Positions 3,887 through 14,595 of a DNA stretch of 64,000 nucleotides are shown piece after piece. The notes under the pieces are model-generated. The model ran no database searches and was not told the origin of the DNA. It was given only the letters and a program-made list of their open reading frames with translations. The translations under genes and the position numbers were made by a program. The DNA lies in assembly GCF_023347235.1 (NCBI RefSeq), contig NZ_CP094467.1:496001-560000 (forward strand), read 5' to 3'. Position 1 is the stretch's first letter, and the number at the start of each line of letters is the position of its first letter. The DNA comes from Faecalibacterium sp. I4-1-79. Lineage in GTDB: Bacteria; Bacillota; Clostridia; Oscillospirales; Ruminococcaceae.

Positions 3887-3962
3887 TTATGGACACCGCA
3901 GTCTGAACAAATAACAGCGCAGGGCGTGCGGAATGCAGTGCACGCCCCGCAGGAGAGAACCA

Positions 3963-6440
3963 ATGCAAGAACCTTTCCGTAACAAAAAAAGCAGGGGCTA
4001 CCGCCTGCGTCCGGCCACCGGACGGGATCGGCTGGACAGCCGGGTGCGGCGGCTTTGCAGCCGTCTGGGCATCCTTGCGGTGGTGGTGGCAGCAGCCATC
4101 GTTATCCGCAGCCTGTATAATATCCAGATCATCCACGGAGCCGAGTACCGCCAGTACGCCGCCCAGCAGCAGCTGCTGGATACCACCATCAAGGCCACCC
4201 GCGGCGAGATCTATGATGCTTCCGGTATCACCCTTGCCTCTACCAGCGTGGTGTGGACCATCTGGGCAGACCCCAGTTACAGCAGCATCCTTTATACCAG
4301 CAAGACCAATGATGACGACACCGTGACAAAAACGCTGGACCCCGCCATGTGTGCCGAGGTGAGCCGGGAGCTGACGTTGCGTCTGCTCTCCGGGGACGGC
4401 GAGAGCATGGACAGCGTGGACACCTCCTCGGCAGAGTACCAGCAGCAGTACCAGACCGTTTACGATGCACTTTCCCGGCTGGATTCTTCCTACGTCACCC
4501 TTGCCACCAAGGTGAACAACGCGGTGAAGCTTTCCATTGAAAAGTACGTTGCCAGCTTCAACAAGGCGCACAAAAAGGCTACCGACACCTCCCGCAAGGG
4601 GCGCATCTCAGTGTCCTCGGAAAAGAGCTTCCAGCGCAACTACCCCTACGGCGCCTTTGCCGCAGCGGTGCTGGGCTTTACGGATGCGGATGGCGTTGGC
4701 ACCTACGGACTGGAAAAATCCTACCAGTCCACCTTAGCCGGTGTGGATGGCCGCACCATCACCCAGCGCAACGCGGTGGGCAACGCCATTGCAGACGCCA
4801 ACGCCACCACCTTTGCCGCCAAGGACGGCTCCAATCTGGTGCTGTCGCTGGACGTGAATGTGCAGGAGATCGCGGAGCGGTACCTGAACGAAGCCATTGC
4901 AGCCAATACGGTAGAAAACCGCGGCTGCGCCATTGTGATGAATGTCAAGACCGGTGCCATCCTTGCCATGGCCTCCAAACCCGACTTTGACCCCAACGAC
5001 CCGCTGAACTACACCGCCAACGAGGCTTATCTCAACGAGCTGGTGCACGCAGAGCCGGAGCTTTACGGCGTCTATAAAAAGGACGCCGACGGCAACTACA
5101 TCACCGATGAACAGGGCAACAAAATTCTGGACGAGGAAGCGGACTATTCCGGCTACTACCGGGATATCCTGTGGAAAAACAAGGCCATCACCGAACTGTA
5201 CTACCCGGGCTCTGTGTTCAAGGTCATCACCTCTGCCATGGGCATCGACTCCGGCGTGGCGACCATGAACACCACCTTTACCTGCTCCGGCGCTTACGGC
5301 GTAGCCAAGGAGACCTACCACTGCGCCGGACGCAAGACGCACGGCCTGCTCAATATGGCCGAGGCGCTGCGCAAGAGCTGCAACATCTACTACATCCAGC
5401 TGGGGCAGCGCGTCGGCTCGCAGCAGTTCTATAACTACTTCGATGCTTTTGGCTTTACCGCCCGCACCGGCGTAGATCTGCCCAGCGAGACTAACTTTAT
5501 GCAGTACTACCGCGCCGACCAGCTGGGCGAGGTGCAGCTGGCGTCCTCCTCCTTCGGTCAGGCCATGGCCATCACCCCGCTGCAGATGTGCACCGCCATT
5601 GCAGCCACCGTCAACGGCGGGTATCTGGTCACCCCCCATGTGGTGGATAAGATCACCGATGCCAACGGCAACGTCATTCAGGAGATCGGCGCAAACGTGC
5701 GCCGTCAGGTCATCAGTCAGAGCGCCAGCGAGGTCATCCGGGAGATGATGGAGTACGAGGTGGGCAACGGTACCGGCGGCGGCAAAAACGCCTATGTGTC
5801 CGGCTACCGCATCGGCGGCAAGTCCGGTACCTCCGAGCAGCTGAATATGCACCGCCGCGCCGACGGCGACTATAAAAAGGTGGCCTCCTTTGTGGCAGTG
5901 CTGCCCGCCAACGACCCGGAAATTCTGGTCTACGTCATGCTGGACGACCCCAACAACGCCCGGACGGACTATTCCTCCATCCTTGCAGCCCCTGTGGCGG
6001 GCAATATCATCAGTGAGGTGGCTCCCTATCTTGGCATCGCCACCGACGGCGAGGACCGCAGCGGCACCATCGTCACCGTGCCGAACCTTGTGGGCACCGA
6101 GTGGAGCAACGCGCAGGTGAGCCTGAATATTCAGGGCCTGAAGCATCAGCTGCAGGAGAGTCAGAGCAGCCAGTCTGCTGCCCCGGTCACCTACCAGTAC
6201 CCCCACGCGGGCGCAAAGGTGCCCTACGGCACCACCATCTACCTGTATACCGATACCTACGAGGGCAGCCGCACCGAGGTGCCGGATGTGACAGGCAAGA
6301 GCCCGGACTTTGCCCGCCAGATGCTGAGCGCCGCCGGGCTGAACTGCGTGGTGGAGGGCAGCGGCACGGTGCAGGCGCAAAGCGCCGAGCCCGGCTCCAG
6401 CGTGCAGCGCGGCACCATCATCACCCTGACCTGTGGGTAA
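3963..6440 (+). CDS. Class B penicillin-binding protein with two PASTA domains (FtsI/PBP2x/SpoVD type)
   Basis: An 825-residue septal transpeptidase candidate. One membrane anchor (about 37-55) is followed by a PBP dimerisation domain (RGEIYDASG near residue 80) and the transpeptidase domain with S417 in SVFK, the SCN motif at 472-474 and KSG at 620-622. Two C-terminal PASTA repeats begin at TVPNLVG and EVPDVTG. This layout is shared by division PBP2x and sporulation SpoVD; the dcw context supports the division role, cross-linking peptidoglycan with FtsW. I choose ATG 3963, six bases after AGGAGA, over an earlier in-frame ATG at 3933. An acidic, glycine- and tyrosine-rich insertion lies between the dimerisation and active-site serine regions (about 360-405). 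Confidence 0.92.
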   Translation: MQEPFRNKKSRGYRLRPATGRDRLDSRVRRLCSRLGILAVVVAAAIVIRSLYNIQIIHGAEYRQYAAQQQLLDTTIKATRGEIYDASGITLASTSVVWTIWADPSYSSILYTSKTNDDDTVTKTLDPAMCAEVSRELTLRLLSGDGESMDSVDTSSAEYQQQYQTVYDALSRLDSSYVTLATKVNNAVKLSIEKYVASFNKAHKKATDTSRKGRISVSSEKSFQRNYPYGAFAAAVLGFTDADGVGTYGLEKSYQSTLAGVDGRTITQRNAVGNAIADANATTFAAKDGSNLVLSLDVNVQEIAERYLNEAIAANTVENRGCAIVMNVKTGAILAMASKPDFDPNDPLNYTANEAYLNELVHAEPELYGVYKKDADGNYITDEQGNKILDEEADYSGYYRDILWKNKAITELYYPGSVFKVITSAMGIDSGVATMNTTFTCSGAYGVAKETYHCAGRKTHGLLNMAEALRKSCNIYYIQLGQRVGSQQFYNYFDAFGFTARTGVDLPSETNFMQYYRADQLGEVQLASSSFGQAMAITPLQMCTAIAATVNGGYLVTPHVVDKITDANGNVIQEIGANVRRQVISQSASEVIREMMEYEVGNGTGGGKNAYVSGYRIGGKSGTSEQLNMHRRADGDYKKVASFVAVLPANDPEILVYVMLDDPNNARTDYSSILAAPVAGNIISEVAPYLGIATDGEDRSGTIVTVPNLVGTEWSNAQVSLNIQGLKHQLQESQSSQSAAPVTYQYPHAGAKVPYGTTIYLYTDTYEGSRTEVPDVTGKSPDFARQMLSAAGLNCVVEGSGTVQAQSAEPGSSVQRGTIITLTCG

Positions 6441-6546: not shown

Positions 6547-7929
6547 ATGGAAAAGATCCATGCAAGCAAGCTTCTGGCAGGGCTGGTGCCTGCCGGAAAA
6601 CTGACCAGTGACCCGGAGGTGGCACTGGTCACCACCGACAGCCGCGAGGTAAAACCCGGCTGCATTTTTGTGGCCTTCCCCGGCGAGCGGTTCGACGGCC
6701 ATGATTTCGCCGCCCGTGCGCTGGAGCAGGGCGCGGAGTATGTGGTGGTCAACCACCCCGTGCCCGGTGTGCCGGAGGAAAAGGCCATCCTTTGCCCGGA
6801 CAGCTACCACGCCATGATGGTGATGGGCGCAAACTACCGCAGCCAGTACCACCCCAAAATGGTGGGTGTGACCGGCAGCGTAGGCAAGACCACCACCAAG
6901 CAGATGACCTACGCTGCCCTGAGCGGTTTTGGCGAGACCATCAAGACCGAGGGCAACCAAAACAATGAACTGGGAATGCCCCGCACCCTGATGCGGCTGG
7001 AAAGCAGCACCGAGTACGCGGTCATCGAGATGGGCATGAGCCATGCGGGCGAGATCGACCGTCTGGCGCGGGCGGCACGCCCGGATGTGGGCATCATTAC
7101 CTGCATCGGCGTGTCCCATATCGGCAATCTGGGCAGTCAGGAGAATATCTGCAAGGCAAAGCTGGAGATCTGCAACGGCCTGCCGGAGGGCGCACCGCTG
7201 GTGCTGAACTACGATGACCCCTTCCTGCGCAAGGCAGTGCTGCCCGCCCATGTGCGCCCGGTGTGGTTCAGCCTGAGCGATGAAAACGCAGACGTCTGCG
7301 CCCTGTCCATCCGGCAGGAGACCGACGGCATGAGTTTTGTGCTGGAAGATCATGAGCACGGCACCTTTGTGGTGAACATCCCCGCCATGGGACGCCATAA
7401 TGTGGCAAACGCTCTGGCTGCCTACTGCGCCGCCACCCGTCTGGGCTGCGACGCCAAGAAGGTCATCCGGGGCCTTTCCAACTTTGAGCAGACCGGCCGC
7501 CGCCAGAAGGTGGTGGACAGCGAGGGCGTGACCGTCATCGAGGACTGCTACAACGCAAACCCGGACAGCATGAAGGCTGCGCTGGCGATGTTTAAAGATT
7601 TCCCCTGCAAGCGCCGCTTTGCCCTGCTGGGCGATATGCTGGAGCTGGGCGAGCTGAGCCGCGAAGCACACGAGGAGCTGGGACGCCTTGCCGCCGAGAG
7701 CGGGCTGTACTGCCTGATCACCTACGGTGAGCAGGCCAAGCGCACCGCTGTGGTGGCTGCGGCCAAGGGGGTAGAGACCCTGCACGCGGACAGCTACCGC
7801 GAGGCTGCCGATGCCCTGCTGAGCCGGGTGCAGCCCGGCGATGCCATTCTGGTAAAGGCCAGCCACGGCATGGCACTGGAAAAAGTGTTGGATATCTTCT
7901 ACGCAGAGCATAAAGAAGCGGAAGTATAA
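6547..7929 (+). CDS. murF: UDP-N-acetylmuramoyl-tripeptide--D-alanyl-D-alanine ligase MurF
   Basis: MurF adds D-Ala-D-Ala to the UDP-MurNAc tripeptide in the cytoplasm using ATP. The 460-residue protein has the Mur ligase P-loop GSVGKTTTK (110-118, Lys114), the substrate loop EGNQNNELGMP, the central AVIEMGMSHAGEI motif, and the C-terminal DCYNANPDSM and LLGDMLELG motifs diagnostic of MurF among the Mur ligases. The ATG at 6547 follows GAGAGGGG; a longer in-frame extension upstream would overlap the PBP stop and lacks homology. It sits between the division PBP and the MraY-like gene, the normal murF position. Confidence 0.95.
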   Translation: MEKIHASKLLAGLVPAGKLTSDPEVALVTTDSREVKPGCIFVAFPGERFDGHDFAARALEQGAEYVVVNHPVPGVPEEKAILCPDSYHAMMVMGANYRSQYHPKMVGVTGSVGKTTTKQMTYAALSGFGETIKTEGNQNNELGMPRTLMRLESSTEYAVIEMGMSHAGEIDRLARAARPDVGIITCIGVSHIGNLGSQENICKAKLEICNGLPEGAPLVLNYDDPFLRKAVLPAHVRPVWFSLSDENADVCALSIRQETDGMSFVLEDHEHGTFVVNIPAMGRHNVANALAAYCAATRLGCDAKKVIRGLSNFEQTGRRQKVVDSEGVTVIEDCYNANPDSMKAALAMFKDFPCKRRFALLGDMLELGELSREAHEELGRLAAESGLYCLITYGEQAKRTAVVAAAKGVETLHADSYREAADALLSRVQPGDAILVKASHGMALEKVLDIFYAEHKEAEV

Positions 7930-7957: not shown

Positions 7958-8953
7958 ATGGAGCGTTTCGCCTTGGCAGCGGCGGTGGTGCTGGGCTTTG
8001 CCCTTACGGCAGCCCTGTGCAGCCTGTTTGTGCCGCTGCGGCGGGTGCTGGAACGCCGCGAACAACAACAGCAGCCGGTACAATCTGAGCAGCCCCGGCC
8101 TGCACCCCTGCGCGCCCCGCTGTGGGGTGGGCTGTGTGCTGCGGCGGGCACGGTGGCTGCGGTGGGCGTGGGCTGGCTTGCCGCCTGCGTGGGCCAGCCG
8201 GAGCTGCTGGGCAGCGAAGGCCGGTTGATGACGCGGCTGCTCACGGCACTGGCTGGGAGCCTTGCCTTTGGGGCAGTGGGTTTTGCAGAGGACCTTGCCC
8301 GGATGCGCAGCCCGGCGGCGCTGGGGCTGCGGCGGGACGTGCGGCTTTTGCTGGAAGCACTGGCTGCGGCCTTTGTCCTTTTGCTGCTGCGGGCAGCGGG
8401 CTGTCTGCCCCGGGGGCTGGGCGTGCCCGGGGCGGGGTATGTGCTGCTGGGCAGCGCCGTGCCCTTTTTATGGGCGGTGCTCATGGTGGCACTGGCCGAG
8501 TGCGCCCGCATCGCCGAGCGGGACGAGGGCGCAGTGTGCGGTGCAGCCTTTGTGGCCATGCTGGCGTTGATGATGGTAGAGGCCGGTCTGGGCGTTTCCG
8601 GGCTGGCGGTGCTGCCCGGAGCGCTGGCCGGGGCACTGGTGGCGCTGGGGCTGTGGGCGTTCCCTCCGGCAAGGCTGGGGGTGGGCTGCTGCGGCAGTCT
8701 GCTGGCAGCGGGTGCCATCGGCTGCATCCCGCTCAGTCTGGACATGACCAGCCTGACCGTGCCGCTGGCGCTGCCCTTCTGGGCGGCGGGCGGTCTTTTG
8801 GCAGCGCAGCTGCTGTGTGCAAAGCGCACCGGCAAGCCCTTGCGCTGCTGGGTAAAAAAGCATAAAATGAGCCCGGAGACGGTGTTCCTGTGCAGCTTTG
8901 CGCTGAGCGCTGTCGGCTATGTGCTGGCGCTGGCGCTGCTGCGCTGGTGCTGA
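7958..8953 (+). CDS. MraY-like membrane protein lacking MraY catalytic motifs
   Basis: A 331-residue polytopic membrane protein located exactly where mraY normally lies, between murF and ftsW. Segments align with MraY: FGAVGFAEDLARM (104-116) with the FGxxGFxDD helix, GVGCCGSLLAAGAIG (241-255) with MGDTGSLALGGALG, and a KKHKMSPETV tail region with the HHHFE-containing loop. But catalytic positions are replaced: the first aspartate of the DD pair is E111, the NLTDGLDGLA motif is unrecognisable (around 182-192), the GDTGS aspartate is C244, and the triple histidine is gone. MraY makes lipid I; this copy is unlikely to. A true mraY may lie elsewhere, with this one kept as a structural or regulatory paralogue. 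Very alanine- and leucine-rich. Confidence 0.75.
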   Translation: MERFALAAAVVLGFALTAALCSLFVPLRRVLERREQQQQPVQSEQPRPAPLRAPLWGGLCAAAGTVAAVGVGWLAACVGQPELLGSEGRLMTRLLTALAGSLAFGAVGFAEDLARMRSPAALGLRRDVRLLLEALAAAFVLLLLRAAGCLPRGLGVPGAGYVLLGSAVPFLWAVLMVALAECARIAERDEGAVCGAAFVAMLALMMVEAGLGVSGLAVLPGALAGALVALGLWAFPPARLGVGCCGSLLAAGAIGCIPLSLDMTSLTVPLALPFWAAGGLLAAQLLCAKRTGKPLRCWVKKHKMSPETVFLCSFALSAVGYVLALALLRWC

Positions 8954-8981: not shown

Positions 8982-10295
8982 ATGGCGACTATCCGCAAAA
9001 AACACAGAGCGCCGGTGTCGGTGTTCCAGCGAGATCCGGGCCCGTGGTCCCGGCTGCTGATCGACTGGCTGGCTACGCTGGCTGTTATTATGATCTTTGG
9101 GCTGGTGATGCTGTTCAGTGCCAGCTACACCACCGGTTACCTGCGCATGGGCGACAGCTTCCACTATATCAAGCAGCAGGCGCTGTGCATGATGATCGGG
9201 CTGGCCTGTATGTTCCTGATGAGTTATATGGATCACCGCTTTTTGCGCAAGATGGTGGTGCCGGGCTACATCATTGTGCTGGCCATGCTGGCCGTCACCC
9301 TGACCATGGCACCCCTGAACGGCTGCCGCCGCTGGATCCGCTTCGGTGGGCTTACACTGCAATCCTCCGAGGTGGCAAAGTTTGAAATGATCCTGTTCAG
9401 CTCCCATCTTGCGGCAAAAGCGCCGCAGGTGGAGCGGCTGGACCCGGAGCGCCGCATCCTGCTTACACCCCGGGAGTGGCTGCGGGTGCGGGTGTGGAAG
9501 CAGCTGGTGGTGCCGGTGCTGCCCCTTATACCGGTGGTCATCCTGCTGGCGATGGAGCCGCACATGTCCGGCATCGTGCTGACGGTGGCGGTGGTGGGCA
9601 CCATCCTGCTGCTGTCCGGCAGCGGCGGTGTGCTGACATGGGCGGGTGCCATCACGGCAGGCGCCCTGCTGGAAACCCTGCTCTCCCATGTGGACTCCAT
9701 CCCTTACCTGCAAAAGCGTCTGGACGGATGGACACAGGATCTGAGCAAGATGACCGACCAGACCGTGCAGAGCCTTTACGCCATCGGCTCCGGCGGGCTG
9801 AAGGGGCTGGGGCTGGGCAACAGCGTGGAAAAGCAGCTCTGGCTACCGGAAAGCACCAACGACTTCATCTTCAGCGTGGTGTGCGAGGAGTTGGGCTTCA
9901 TCGGCGCAGTGCTCATTATCGTGTTGTTCGTGCTGTTCATCGTGCAGGGGCTGCTCATCGCCTATAAGGCGGAGAACCTGTACTGCACCATGGTGGGCAT
10001 CGGCATCATGGCACAGATCGCGTGGCAGGTGTTCTGCAATATCGCCGTGGTCACCAACACCCTGCCCAACACCGGCATCAGCCTGCCCTTCTTCTCCTCC
10101 GGCGGCACCAGCCTGATTTTGCTGCTGGCAGAAATGGGCGTGATGGTGAACATAGGCCGCAACGGCGAGCGGGTGGCGCAGCAGCGGGAGCAGATGCGTG
10201 CCCAGCGGGAAGCCGCCCGCGCTGAGCGCGAGGCAGAACTTGCCCGCAAGACTATTGACTTGGCTTCTGCCCGCGCAGCCCGCACAGAACAGTAA
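8982..10295 (+). CDS. ftsW: Lipid II polymerase FtsW (SEDS family)
   Basis: FtsW is the septal SEDS glycosyltransferase that polymerises lipid II together with its class B PBP. The 437-residue protein has about ten membrane helices, NGCRRWIRFGGLTLQSSEVAK, the PESTNDFIFSVVCEELG loop and the signature LPNTGISLPFFSSGGTSL. The start at ATG 8982 follows AGGGAGCG; the longer in-frame extension overlaps the preceding gene. A charged, arginine/glutamate-rich helix forms the cytoplasmic C terminus (about 390-437). RodA or SpoVE labels are possible for this fold, but the division cluster favours FtsW. Confidence 0.93.
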   Translation: MATIRKKHRAPVSVFQRDPGPWSRLLIDWLATLAVIMIFGLVMLFSASYTTGYLRMGDSFHYIKQQALCMMIGLACMFLMSYMDHRFLRKMVVPGYIIVLAMLAVTLTMAPLNGCRRWIRFGGLTLQSSEVAKFEMILFSSHLAAKAPQVERLDPERRILLTPREWLRVRVWKQLVVPVLPLIPVVILLAMEPHMSGIVLTVAVVGTILLLSGSGGVLTWAGAITAGALLETLLSHVDSIPYLQKRLDGWTQDLSKMTDQTVQSLYAIGSGGLKGLGLGNSVEKQLWLPESTNDFIFSVVCEELGFIGAVLIIVLFVLFIVQGLLIAYKAENLYCTMVGIGIMAQIAWQVFCNIAVVTNTLPNTGISLPFFSSGGTSLILLLAEMGVMVNIGRNGERVAQQREQMRAQREAARAEREAELARKTIDLASARAARTEQ

Positions 10296-10350: not shown

Positions 10351-11478
10351 ATGCGTGTTCTCATCGCAGCCGGCGGCACTGCCGGACATATCAACCCCGC
10401 ACTGGCCATTGCCGGTGCTCTGAAAAAGGCTGACCCTACCGCCGAGATCCACTTTGCAGGCCGTAAGGAGGGCATGGAGTACCGTTTGGTCACACAGGCG
10501 GGCTACCCCTTCCACCACATCGAGATCACCGGTTTTCAGCGCAAGCTCAGCCTGCACAACATCAAGCGCAATATCATTACCCTGTGGAATCTGGCTCTCT
10601 CCAGCCCCAAGGCCAAGGCCATGATGAAAGAGGTAAAGCCGGATCTTGTCATCGGCTGCGGCGGCTATGTGTCCGGCCCGGTGGTGCGCTGCGCCGCCAA
10701 AATGGGCATCCACACCGCTTTGCACGAGCAGAACGCTTTTCCCGGTGTGACCAACAAGCTGCTGGCCCCGGATGTGGATATCGTGTTTGCCGCTGTGCCC
10801 GCCGCTGTGGAAAAGCTGGGCGCACCGGACAAGACCCTTGTGGTGGGCAATCCCGTGCGGCCGGAGGTGTTTGTACAGGCCGCGAATCGCGAGGCCATCC
10901 GTGCACAGCTGGGTGCGGGCGACCGCACCGTCATCCTGTCCTTCGGCGGCAGCTTGGGCGCACGCCGGGTCAACGAGGTGGTGGCAGACCTGTGCGCATG
11001 GGAGCAGCACGAGCACAAGCCGGTGCTGCATCTGCATGCCACCGGGCAGTACGGGGTGCAGCTGTTTGAGCAGCTGCAAAAGCAGAAGGGCTTTGCCCCC
11101 GGCGACAGCCTTGTGGTAAAGGAATACATCAACAATATGCCGGAGCTGCTGGCAGCGGCAGACCTCGTCATCAGCCGCGCCGGTGCGCTGACGCTGGCCG
11201 AACTGGAAGCCGTGGGACGCGCCGCTGTGCTGATTCCCAGCCCCAATGTGGCGGAGAACCACCAGTACTACAACGCCATGGAGCTGCAAAAGGCCGGGGC
11301 GGCTGTGGTCATTGAAGAAAAAGACCTGACCGGCGAAAAGCTGGTGCAGACTGTTTCTACTATGCTGGCACAGCCCGGCAAGCTGGCCGAAATGGGCAAA
11401 AATGCCCGCAGTCTGTCGGTGGACGACAGTCTGGACCGCATCACTGCGGCGCTGCTCAAGCTGGTCAAGACCCCGTGA
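10351..11478 (+). CDS. murG: UDP-N-acetylglucosamine--lipid I GlcNAc transferase MurG
   Basis: MurG transfers GlcNAc to lipid I at the inner face of the membrane, giving lipid II. The 375-residue protein starts with MRVLIAAGGTAGHINPA, the donor-loop GGTAGH (8-13), and has HEQNAFPGVTNKLL, SFGGSLGARRVN and the UDP-GlcNAc-binding PSPNVAENHQYYNA motif near the C terminus. A strong AAGGAGG site precedes the ATG. It lies between ftsW and ftsQ as in many dcw clusters. Its substrate depends on an MraY, whose cluster copy appears inactive. Confidence 0.95.
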   Translation: MRVLIAAGGTAGHINPALAIAGALKKADPTAEIHFAGRKEGMEYRLVTQAGYPFHHIEITGFQRKLSLHNIKRNIITLWNLALSSPKAKAMMKEVKPDLVIGCGGYVSGPVVRCAAKMGIHTALHEQNAFPGVTNKLLAPDVDIVFAAVPAAVEKLGAPDKTLVVGNPVRPEVFVQAANREAIRAQLGAGDRTVILSFGGSLGARRVNEVVADLCAWEQHEHKPVLHLHATGQYGVQLFEQLQKQKGFAPGDSLVVKEYINNMPELLAAADLVISRAGALTLAELEAVGRAAVLIPSPNVAENHQYYNAMELQKAGAAVVIEEKDLTGEKLVQTVSTMLAQPGKLAEMGKNARSLSVDDSLDRITAALLKLVKTP

Positions 11479-13116: not shown

Positions 13117-14595
13117 ATGAAGCTGGAACAACTGATGGAAGGCGTGCCCTTTACCCTTGTGCAGGGCAGTCTGGATACTGAGATCGCGGATATCATCTAC
13201 GACAGCCGCAAGGCTGCCCCGGGGCTTTTGTTCGTGTGCATCGTGGGCACCCAGCGGGACAGCCACACGTTTGCCGCTGACTGCGCCGCCAAGGGGGTCA
13301 GCGCGCTGGTCATCCAGCACGACATCGATCTTTCTGCCATGCCCGGAGTGACCGTGGTCAAGGTGGAGAGCAGCCGCTATGCCATGGCGCTGATGAGCGC
13401 CAACCTCTTTGGCAACCCTGCCCGCCAGATGACCATGATCGGCGTCACCGGTACCAAGGGCAAGACCACCACCACCCACATGATCAAAAGCGTGCTGGAG
13501 GCCGCAGGCCGCAAGGTGGGCATGATCGGCACCAATGGCATCTACTATATGGGACGCCACAAGGACACCGCCAACACCACCCCGGAAAGCTACGAGCTGC
13601 AAAAGACCTTCCGGGAGTTTCTGGATGCCGGCTGCGACACCGCGCTGATGGAAGTGTCCAGTCAGGGCCTGATGATGGATCGCGTGGCGGGCGTGCACTA
13701 CGATGTGGGCGTGTTCACCAACCTTTCGCCGGATCACATCGGCCCCGGTGAGCACAAGACCTTTGAGGAGTACCGCAGCTGGAAGGGACAGCTGTTCAAG
13801 CGCTGCGACGTGGGCGTGGTGAATATCGACGACGAGAACACCGCCGCCCTGCTGGAGGGCCACACCTGCAAGCTGGTGACCTACGGCCGCGATGAAAAGG
13901 CCGACTACCGCGAGACCGGCTACAAACTGCTGCGCACCCACGATTTTCTGGGCGTTGCCTTCCACATTACCGGCAAGGACGAGATGGACGTCAAGGTGAA
14001 TATGCCCGGCGAGTTCAGCGTGTACAACGCGCTGGCAGCGCTGGCCGTGGGCAAGGTGCTGGGTCTGCCGGATGCCGCCATCCACGACGGTCTGGGCAAG
14101 TGCGTGGTGAAGGGCCGTGTGGAGCTGGTGCCCATCAGCAAAAAGTTCACTATCCTGCTGGATTACGCCCACAACGAGGTATCCACCGAGAGCCTGCTTA
14201 CCACCCTGCGCGCCTACAAGCCCCACCGTCTGGTGGTGGTGTTCGGCTGCGGCGGCAACCGCTCCAAGCTGCGCCGCTACGGCATGGGCGAGATCTGCGC
14301 CAAGATGGCCGATTTCTCCATCCTCACCGAGGACAACAACCGCTTTGAAAAGGTGGAGGATATCATCGCGGACATCCGCGAAGGCATGAACAAGGGCAAC
14401 CCGGACGCAAAGTTCGTGGAGATCCCCGACCGTCTGGATGCGCTGCACTACGCGGTGGATCACGCACAGGAGGGCGATTTGATCGCCGTCATCGGCAAGG
14501 GGCACGAGACCTACCGCGACCGCGAGGGCGTCAAGACCCCCTTCCTTGAGCGGGAGCTGCTGGAGGAATACGCACAGCAGATCGGGCTGGAATAA
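13117..14595 (+). CDS. murE: UDP-N-acetylmuramyl-tripeptide synthetase MurE
   Basis: MurE adds the third amino acid of the peptidoglycan stem peptide. The 492-residue protein has the P-loop GTKGKTTTT (112-120, Lys116), TPESYELQ, MEVSSQGL, the DYAHNEVS and FGCGGNRSKLRR motifs and the C-terminal KGHETY. The specificity motif reads DNNR (406-409) where meso-diaminopimelate enzymes have DNPR and many lysine enzymes DNPA, so the arginine argues for a diamino diacid such as meso-DAP, with the Pro-to-Asn change unusual. A TTGGAGGAG site precedes the ATG. It closes the cluster, downstream of ftsQ rather than next to murF. Confidence 0.92.
   Translation: MKLEQLMEGVPFTLVQGSLDTEIADIIYDSRKAAPGLLFVCIVGTQRDSHTFAADCAAKGVSALVIQHDIDLSAMPGVTVVKVESSRYAMALMSANLFGNPARQMTMIGVTGTKGKTTTTHMIKSVLEAAGRKVGMIGTNGIYYMGRHKDTANTTPESYELQKTFREFLDAGCDTALMEVSSQGLMMDRVAGVHYDVGVFTNLSPDHIGPGEHKTFEEYRSWKGQLFKRCDVGVVNIDDENTAALLEGHTCKLVTYGRDEKADYRETGYKLLRTHDFLGVAFHITGKDEMDVKVNMPGEFSVYNALAALAVGKVLGLPDAAIHDGLGKCVVKGRVELVPISKKFTILLDYAHNEVSTESLLTTLRAYKPHRLVVVFGCGGNRSKLRRYGMGEICAKMADFSILTEDNNRFEKVEDIIADIREGMNKGNPDAKFVEIPDRLDALHYAVDHAQEGDLIAVIGKGHETYRDREGVKTPFLERELLEEYAQQIGLE

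Follow-up and report, generated by a model that had tools for sequence, protein, structure and literature searches.

ORF 7958-8953, which lies in the mraY slot of a Faecalibacterium dcw cluster, was confirmed by sequence comparison as an orthologue of the dcw-cluster MraY whose active site is gone. The window (the whole stretch of DNA analysed, 64,000 nucleotides) comes from a 3.23 Mb genome in a single contig. MraY is an essential enzyme and an antibiotic target, and Faecalibacterium is a major human gut commensal. The reading that we favour, at slightly better than an even chance, is that the ORF encodes a pseudoenzyme, that a second MraY (MraY2) encoded elsewhere in the genome took over the synthesis of lipid I, and that the dead copy was kept as a non-catalytic membrane scaffold, which may hold undecaprenyl phosphate (C55-P).

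The dcw copy of MraY and its catalytic site

The dcw cluster of the window contained, in order, mraZ, rsmH, a short ORF, a SpoVD/FtsI-type PBP, murF, ORF 7958-8953, an ftsW-like gene, murG, an ftsQ-like gene and murE (Table 1). Apart from ORF 7958-8953 the cluster was ordinary. The ORF was separated by 28 bp from murF and by 28 bp from the likely ftsW start at 8982. The short ORF, in the place of ftsL, gave no family hit. For the ftsW-like gene TIGR02614 was the best of six families, yet its score was under the cut-off of 337.5; the SpoVE score (242.5 bits) was near the FtsW score, and neither was over cut-off. In the window and in the Faecalibacterium dcw loci read (L034-L060) murE followed ftsQ; in the family's other genera the order was pbp-murE-murF. 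A MurJ search of 11 genomes gave no hit over cut-off, and ten of these, including a close relative of the window's genome, gave weak hits only. No similar DNA was found in phage records.

Table 1. Coordinates of the features discussed, in window positions unless a contig is named.
Feature	Position	Strand	Evidence
MraY orthologue, catalytically dead on sequence (pseudo-MraY), 331 aa	7958..8953	+	PF00953, hhalign, residue count
Former DD motif, now E111 D112	8288..8293	+	codons 111-112
Former NxxNxTDGxDG, now E181...R184...E187 R188 D189 E190 G191	8498..8530	+	codons 181-191
C244, replacing the Mg2+-coordinating Asp of MGDTGS (D265, Aquifex)	8687..8689	+	codon 244
R296 C297 W298, replacing HHH	8843..8851	+	codons 296-298, MAFFT with Faecalibacterium copies
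SpoVD/FtsI-type PBP	3933-6440		top score SpoVD, 440.1 bits, under cut-off
murF, upstream neighbour	6547..7929 (longest ORF from 6433)	+	TIGR01143 410.9 bits, over cut-off
ftsW-like SEDS gene, downstream neighbour	8982..10295 (longest ORF from 8919)	+	TIGR02614 261.2 bits
murG	10351..11478	+	TIGR01133 266.4 bits, over cut-off
murE	13117-14595		
MraY2 (P0002), 317 aa	C1:1958231-1959181		outside dcw, adjoining folD (named by reading)
MviN/MurJ-like protein, window's genome	G000:C1:2137554-2139029		232.5 bits, cut-off 235.55

The ORF product scored 36.4 bits on PF00953, over the gathering cut-off of 27, but with 17.9 bits it fell far short of the 192.05 that the MraY equivalog TIGR00445 requires. 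Profile-profile alignment (hhalign) of the window protein and three near relatives with intact MraYs gave a probability of 99.3% (E 1.6e-20) over 295 columns, and was gap-free through the DD, DGxDG and GDTGS motifs. Hydropathy of the window protein tracked that of intact MraY (r 0.84). The slot between murF and ftsW, together with the near full-length match to the dcw MraY profile, marks the ORF as an orthologue by descent. On the MraY protein tree the window protein sat with the dcw MraYs and away from MraY2, a weak placement on long branches. An AlphaFold run on three sequences reached a pLDDT of 40, and the model was not used.

Eight catalytic positions were scored (D107, D108, N177, N180, D183, D186, D240 and H298, numbered as in an intact relative). 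Passages of PMC6606608 and PMC4790310 supplied the three Asp residues of the triad and the first His, and the rest were chosen for their invariance in intact rows. The intact dcw MraY reference comprised 33 rows from 32 distinct genes (G099 was entered twice), a biased set as 30 of the 33 rows were the best scorers of the family search. All 33 rows kept 8/8 positions. The window protein kept one of the eight, D112. Passages of PMC6606608 report D117, D118 and D265 of Aquifex MraY as critical for activity, D265 being the Mg2+-coordinating Asp of MGDTGS; the window protein carries E111, D112 and C244 in their place and does not match this DDD motif. Four charges were retained: E111, D112, R115 and R129.

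At the HHH loop the two alignments differed. MAFFT with other Faecalibacterium copies (PLHRW... against PIHHH...) placed HHH at window residues 296-298, while hhalign slipped six residues near the end and set residues 305-306 on the Ser-Pro preceding HHH. Neither placement had a His at the loop. Another register restoring the motifs was ruled out by profile-profile alignment at DD, DGxDG and GDTGS, and at HHH by the lack of a His. An earlier note on this DNA had put the ORF in the mraY slot and aligned it with MraY, and had read E111, C244, a decayed DG motif and a lost HHH loop. These readings all held on alignment with intact MraYs, and the shift of register that it had raised as a counter-explanation was looked for without any alignment restoring the catalytic residues.

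MraY2 as the candidate lipid I synthase

The window's genome encoded exactly two PF00953 proteins, ORF 7958-8953 and MraY2. The MraY2 motifs were YLDD, NCTDGVDGLSA, LLMGDAGS and HDH, and all eight catalytic positions were kept. Five good PDB matches were all MraY; a sixth, at E 0.008, was unrelated. MraY2 scored 88.8 bits on TIGR00445 (cut-off 192.05), 62.1 bits on archaeal MraY and 45.2 bits on WecA, none of them over cut-off. The window group matched the MraY2 profile with a probability of 2.6%, so the two are no close paralogues. Altogether, 63 MraY2 rows were collected from 63 genomes (two rows were identical), and 8/8 positions were kept in 63/63. Given these intact motifs and the absence of a third candidate in the genome, MraY2 is the most likely lipid I synthase, and it very likely makes lipid I.

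MraY2 loops were of the HDH type, the middle His of HHH being absent from 63/63 rows. The equivalent of F262 was also absent from 63/63, and a basic residue at K121 was absent from 49/63. The loci behind these counts were L001, L061, L096-L100, L130, L145-L164 and L180-L184. Passages of PMC6606608 name F262 and H325, the latter being the middle residue of HHH, as contacts of nucleoside inhibitors in MraY. Since neither residue is present in MraY2, the effect of such inhibitors on these commensals may be different.

At E <= 1e-50, MraY2 turned up in 53 of the 297 family genomes, representing 17 of 126 genera. A sample drawn from the whole phylum (398 genomes) gave three with MraY2, and two of these three belong to the family. 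Among the 53 family genomes the dcw copy was degenerate in 34, barely altered in one, intact in nine and missing from an empty slot in eight; one (G241) was unread. In ten genomes no neighbour of MraY2 was common to more than three. A lateral origin of MraY2 is probable. A single clade uniting the MraY2 of Faecalibacterium with that of the closely related g19 and g80 was rejected (AU p 0.011), and g1 with g19 MraY2 alone as a clade gave an AU p of 0.019, the groups in these tests having been named after the tree was seen. As MraY2 does not form one clade, separate arrivals seem likely.

Spread, origins and selection of the dcw copy

An open, catalytically altered dcw copy was present in 27 of the 31 Faecalibacterium genomes searched, the window's included. 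Of the remaining four, one copy was frameshifted (G025), one was cut by a contig end (G019), and no dcw MraY hit was found in two genomes (G010 and G027). The G025 copy (L059) was the sole frameshifted one among 28 Faecalibacterium copies readable whole; this assembly is 79% complete and the frameshift is either real or an assembly error. G025 and G019 were omitted from column counts. The MGDTGS Asp was lost in 26 of the 27 open copies. An early Faecalibacterium branch (G020) kept 6/8 positions, including the MGDTGS Asp and DGIDG; in DD the first Asp was replaced by Glu, N180 had become His, and HHH was reduced to its first His. The window ORF was 98% identical to copies in F. prausnitzii ATCC 27768 and APC923/51-1, the only named relatives found.

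The wider family was searched with TIGR00445 in 297 genomes, of which 237 were over its cut-off. The dcw slot was then read in 40 genomes from 14 other genera; almost all of these genomes scored weakly. In 32/40 slots, spread over 12 genera, the frame was open and encoded a degenerate protein of 300-360 aa. The other 8/40 slots were empty and accounted for every slot read in genera g64 and g75 (8/8), where the gap between the murF and ftsW hits was 152-227 bp. Any role of the dead copy is therefore dispensable at least there. Across 59 open altered copies from 13 genera the Mg2+-binding Asp was lost in 58 (32/32 outside Faecalibacterium) and N180 in all 59; residues kept included G239 (59), G187 (57), G242 (56) and D108 (56).

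Ten genomes with MraY2 and a dcw-type MraY belonged to genera g19, g43 and g70, which, having an intact MraY alongside MraY2, may represent the state before the switch. Nine of the ten kept every position read, including a contig fragment (G286) with 6/6 positions intact, and the slot position was seen for 6/10. In the tenth (G072, L176, g43), which also had MraY2, the Mg2+ Asp was replaced by Asn and N177 by Asp, the sequence being normal elsewhere. At 240.4 bits this dcw MraY was over the TIGR00445 cut-off, and annotation would call it MraY. Perhaps it is a freshly inactivated copy, the first step of loss, unless its sequence is in error.

No MraY2 was found in three genomes with a degenerate copy: G132 (88% complete), G197 (85%) and G095 (99%). 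A lax search of G095 found the dcw copy alone. Three congeners of G095 carry MraY2, so an assembly gap is possible, and G095 stays an exception. Two further genomes, G275 (99% complete) and G127 (95%), were without a PF00953 match and without a murF over cut-off, and are perhaps wall-less or wall-reduced lineages.

Origins were counted on a tree of MurF, FtsW and MurG with 69 rows, in which G072 was entered as intact although its Mg2+ Asp is lost. This tree and the MraY protein tree included 11 of the 29 Faecalibacterium dcw rows. The MraY protein tree was kept out of the counts because it joins fast-evolving copies. The dcw state required eight changes on the MurF+FtsW+MurG tree. One clade of all degenerate and empty slots was rejected (AU p 2e-17). 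Faecalibacterium and g80 were drawn apart with intact g19 between them, and one origin for the two was not rejected (AU p 0.27). One origin for g31 and the large clade was borderline (AU p 0.045), and one clade of empty rows was not rejected (AU p 0.51). Loss in the dcw MraY thus arose at least twice, and perhaps up to six times.

Pairwise codon maximum likelihood was used to estimate dN/dS for 21 hand-chosen Faecalibacterium pairs, of which those with dS under 3 entered the medians. Pairs dropped for a dS of 3 or more numbered 2/21 for the dead copy, 1/21 for murF and 4/10 in other genera. The median dN/dS of the dead copy in Faecalibacterium was 0.085 (19 pairs), exceeding those of murF (0.059, 20 pairs), ftsW (0.060, 21 pairs), murG (0.043, 21 pairs) and MraY2 (0.032, 21 pairs). 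Between the window and its three nearest relatives dN/dS was 0.12, 0.091 and 0.071, and tests against neutrality gave likelihood-ratio statistics of 34-55. For G029/G028, a very close pair, the value was 0.56 at a dS of 0.03. In other genera the six estimable pairs of ten ranged from 0.105 to 0.209, above the neighbour genes save for a near tie (g126). A burst that speaks against steady constraint was seen in the window's lineage, with a dN to G012 of 0.353 against 0.055 for murF, 0.069 for ftsW and 0.050 for MraY2. The Faecalibacterium dead copies are under purifying selection.

Several residues were newly fixed in Faecalibacterium at sites that had been invariant before: K125R (27/27), Q129E (27/27), N177E (26/27), N180R (25/27) and H300W (25/27). 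The same sites changed differently in other genera, and the new fixed residues are those of Faecalibacterium. A plain pseudogene was ruled out for the genus by the open frames and dN/dS.

The earlier note had proposed that a second, working MraY exists and that the dcw copy became a conserved pseudoenzyme with a scaffold or regulatory role, or else that an unusual enzyme makes lipid I. The genome search that it proposed turned up one other PF00953 protein with intact positions, carrying HDH rather than HHH. The pseudoenzyme fits the altered open copies of 27/31 Faecalibacterium genomes and 32/40 slots of other genera, with dN/dS well below 1: across 59 open copies, open frames and purifying selection between species followed the loss of catalytic residues. 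The orthologues, whose absence or wealth of stops would have told against that note, were mostly open, except for the eight empty slots in two genera and the frameshifted G025. The broader interpretation stands as to the second MraY with 8/8 positions and the conserved dead copy; that MraY2 makes lipid I is a part that we infer. A new part of the divisome, as that note put it, would be dispensable at least in the two genera with empty slots.

Explanations for the retained copy and known systems

On the reading that we favour, a divergent MraY2 would have arrived, probably laterally, outside the dcw cluster, and lipid I synthesis would have moved to it. The freed dcw MraY would have lost its Mg2+ ligand, the Asn and Asp residues on the nucleotide side and the HHH loop, and would have retained the fold in the membrane and the position between MurF and FtsW/MurG, usually without loss of the gene. 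The dead copy would serve the lipid I/II assembly line as a membrane scaffold that takes no part in catalysis, and the Faecalibacterium copies may still hold C55-P. The scaffold is plausible; binding of C55-P is speculative.

C55-P holding is suggested by the charges kept, as E/D, R and R at the predicted site of the C55-P phosphate and as D at the neighbouring D118. Passages of PMC4790310 predict that Aquifex D117, with K121 and K133 around it, binds this phosphate. Positions 107, 108, 111 and 125 are equivalent to Aquifex D117, D118, K121 and K133, and in Faecalibacterium the charge class was kept at D107 in 27/27, D108 in 27/27, K111 in 25/27 and K125 in 27/27. Retention was weaker outside the genus (18/32 at 107, 16/32 at 111 and 21/32 at 125). 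The charge of D186, on the nucleotide side, was also kept in 26/27 Faecalibacterium copies. With this charge kept, retention weaker elsewhere and MraY2 itself lacking the basic residue at 111 (49/63), the C55-P site is no clean marker. Because the MraY2s seem to differ in origin and the dcw neighbours are co-inherited, retention would be better explained by a partner encoded in the dcw cluster (MurF, MurG or FtsW) than by one in MraY2. Published papers are said to deal with a scaffold role of MurG and with complexes of these wall proteins.

Decay masked by polarity is the main rival in our ranking, though an unlikely one. By this account the dcw copy was useless once MraY2 came, stops and frameshifts were selected against solely as polar on ftsW and murG, hydrophobicity was kept since a misfolded membrane protein harms the cell, and clean deletions finally remove the gene. 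The empty slots in two genera fit this account, as do catalytic residues that scatter differently in each lineage and a dead copy that outpaces its neighbours, with a burst in the window's lineage. However, its median dN/dS of 0.085 (19 pairs) is close to that of ftsW (0.060), and only 1/28 Faecalibacterium copies read whole was frameshifted. Moreover, 25-27 of the 27 Faecalibacterium copies share the polar or aromatic residues R129, E133, E181, R184 and W298 (window numbering), so hydrophobicity alone is no explanation.

A regulatory heterodimer, in which the dead MraY would pair with MraY2 and tune it, is an improbable alternative drawn from analogy with the dead subunits of other prenyl-lipid enzymes, such as Nus1/NgBR of cis-prenyltransferase. 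In its favour, passages of PMC9046198 couple the formation of the MraY dimer to C55-P binding, and a degenerate copy accompanies MraY2 in 34 of the 53 MraY2 genomes. Against it, MraY2 occurs without a dcw partner in eight genomes of two genera and beside an intact dcw MraY in nine, and three degenerate-copy genomes gave no MraY2. The MraY2s also apparently came from different sources, and the pairing would have had to evolve afresh with each of them.

Continued transferase activity of the dcw protein, by way of other residues or on another sugar nucleotide, is very improbable: PF00953 is still over cut-off and some charges are kept, but nothing is left of the Mg2+ ligand, the Asn pair or HHH, and D117, D118 and D265 are the residues that passages of PMC6606608 report as critical. 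A sequencing or gene-calling artefact is refuted, to near certainty, by the 98% identical copies in the two F. prausnitzii strains and by open orthologues in 26 other Faecalibacterium genomes (two of them probably those strains).

The scaffold reading has a wider form, which we hold tentatively and at rather less than even chances. The dcw MraY would have a second, non-catalytic role in wall assembly, split off repeatedly by foreign MraY2, with the dead copy retained for that role in most lineages, and ordinary MraYs would then probably have this role too. There it would go unseen, since a knock-out kills the cell by ending its supply of lipid I. Species that have separated catalysis from the dcw protein offer a natural separation-of-function experiment on MraY, in which a part of MraY in keeping the lipid I/II machinery together can be tested directly. 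The gene in the Faecalibacterium mraY slot is most likely not the one for the MraY enzyme, so a gene annotated, or a target predicted, from its position would be misassigned.

The literature searched showed no earlier description of MraY2 or of a dcw MraY without activity, a weak result as most subscription journals and all preprints lay outside the search. In the MraY-like family tree, as given in passages of PMC11915815, two sequences per organism occur in the WecA/WbpL group only, and for some organisms.

Compared with MraY (TIGR00445, PF00953; PDB 4j72, 5jnq), the dead copy has a like profile, hydropathy, place in the dcw cluster and set of structural glycines and prolines. Unlike MraY, it is without the Mg2+ Asp, both Asn residues, the DG motifs and HHH, as its 17.9 bits against 192.05 reflect. 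MraY2 of the same genome shares its superfamily with the dead copy and differs in lying outside the dcw cluster, in its intact catalytic positions, in its HDH loop and in its likely lateral origin.

Nus1/NgBR are dead subunits of cis-prenyltransferase, a prenyl-lipid enzyme. Like the dead MraY, they are pseudoenzymes of a polyprenyl-phosphate pathway that stand beside an active homologue. Their fold and reaction are different, however, and for the dead MraY a heterodimer is a hypothesis. The dcw FtsW/FtsI-type synthases of Clostridioides difficile, as described in PMC10693644, are alike in that they too are dcw products of a clostridium and in that a housekeeping vegetative job is done by another protein. 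Those synthases remain enzymes with a role in sporulation, whereas the Faecalibacterium copy is without its catalytic site.
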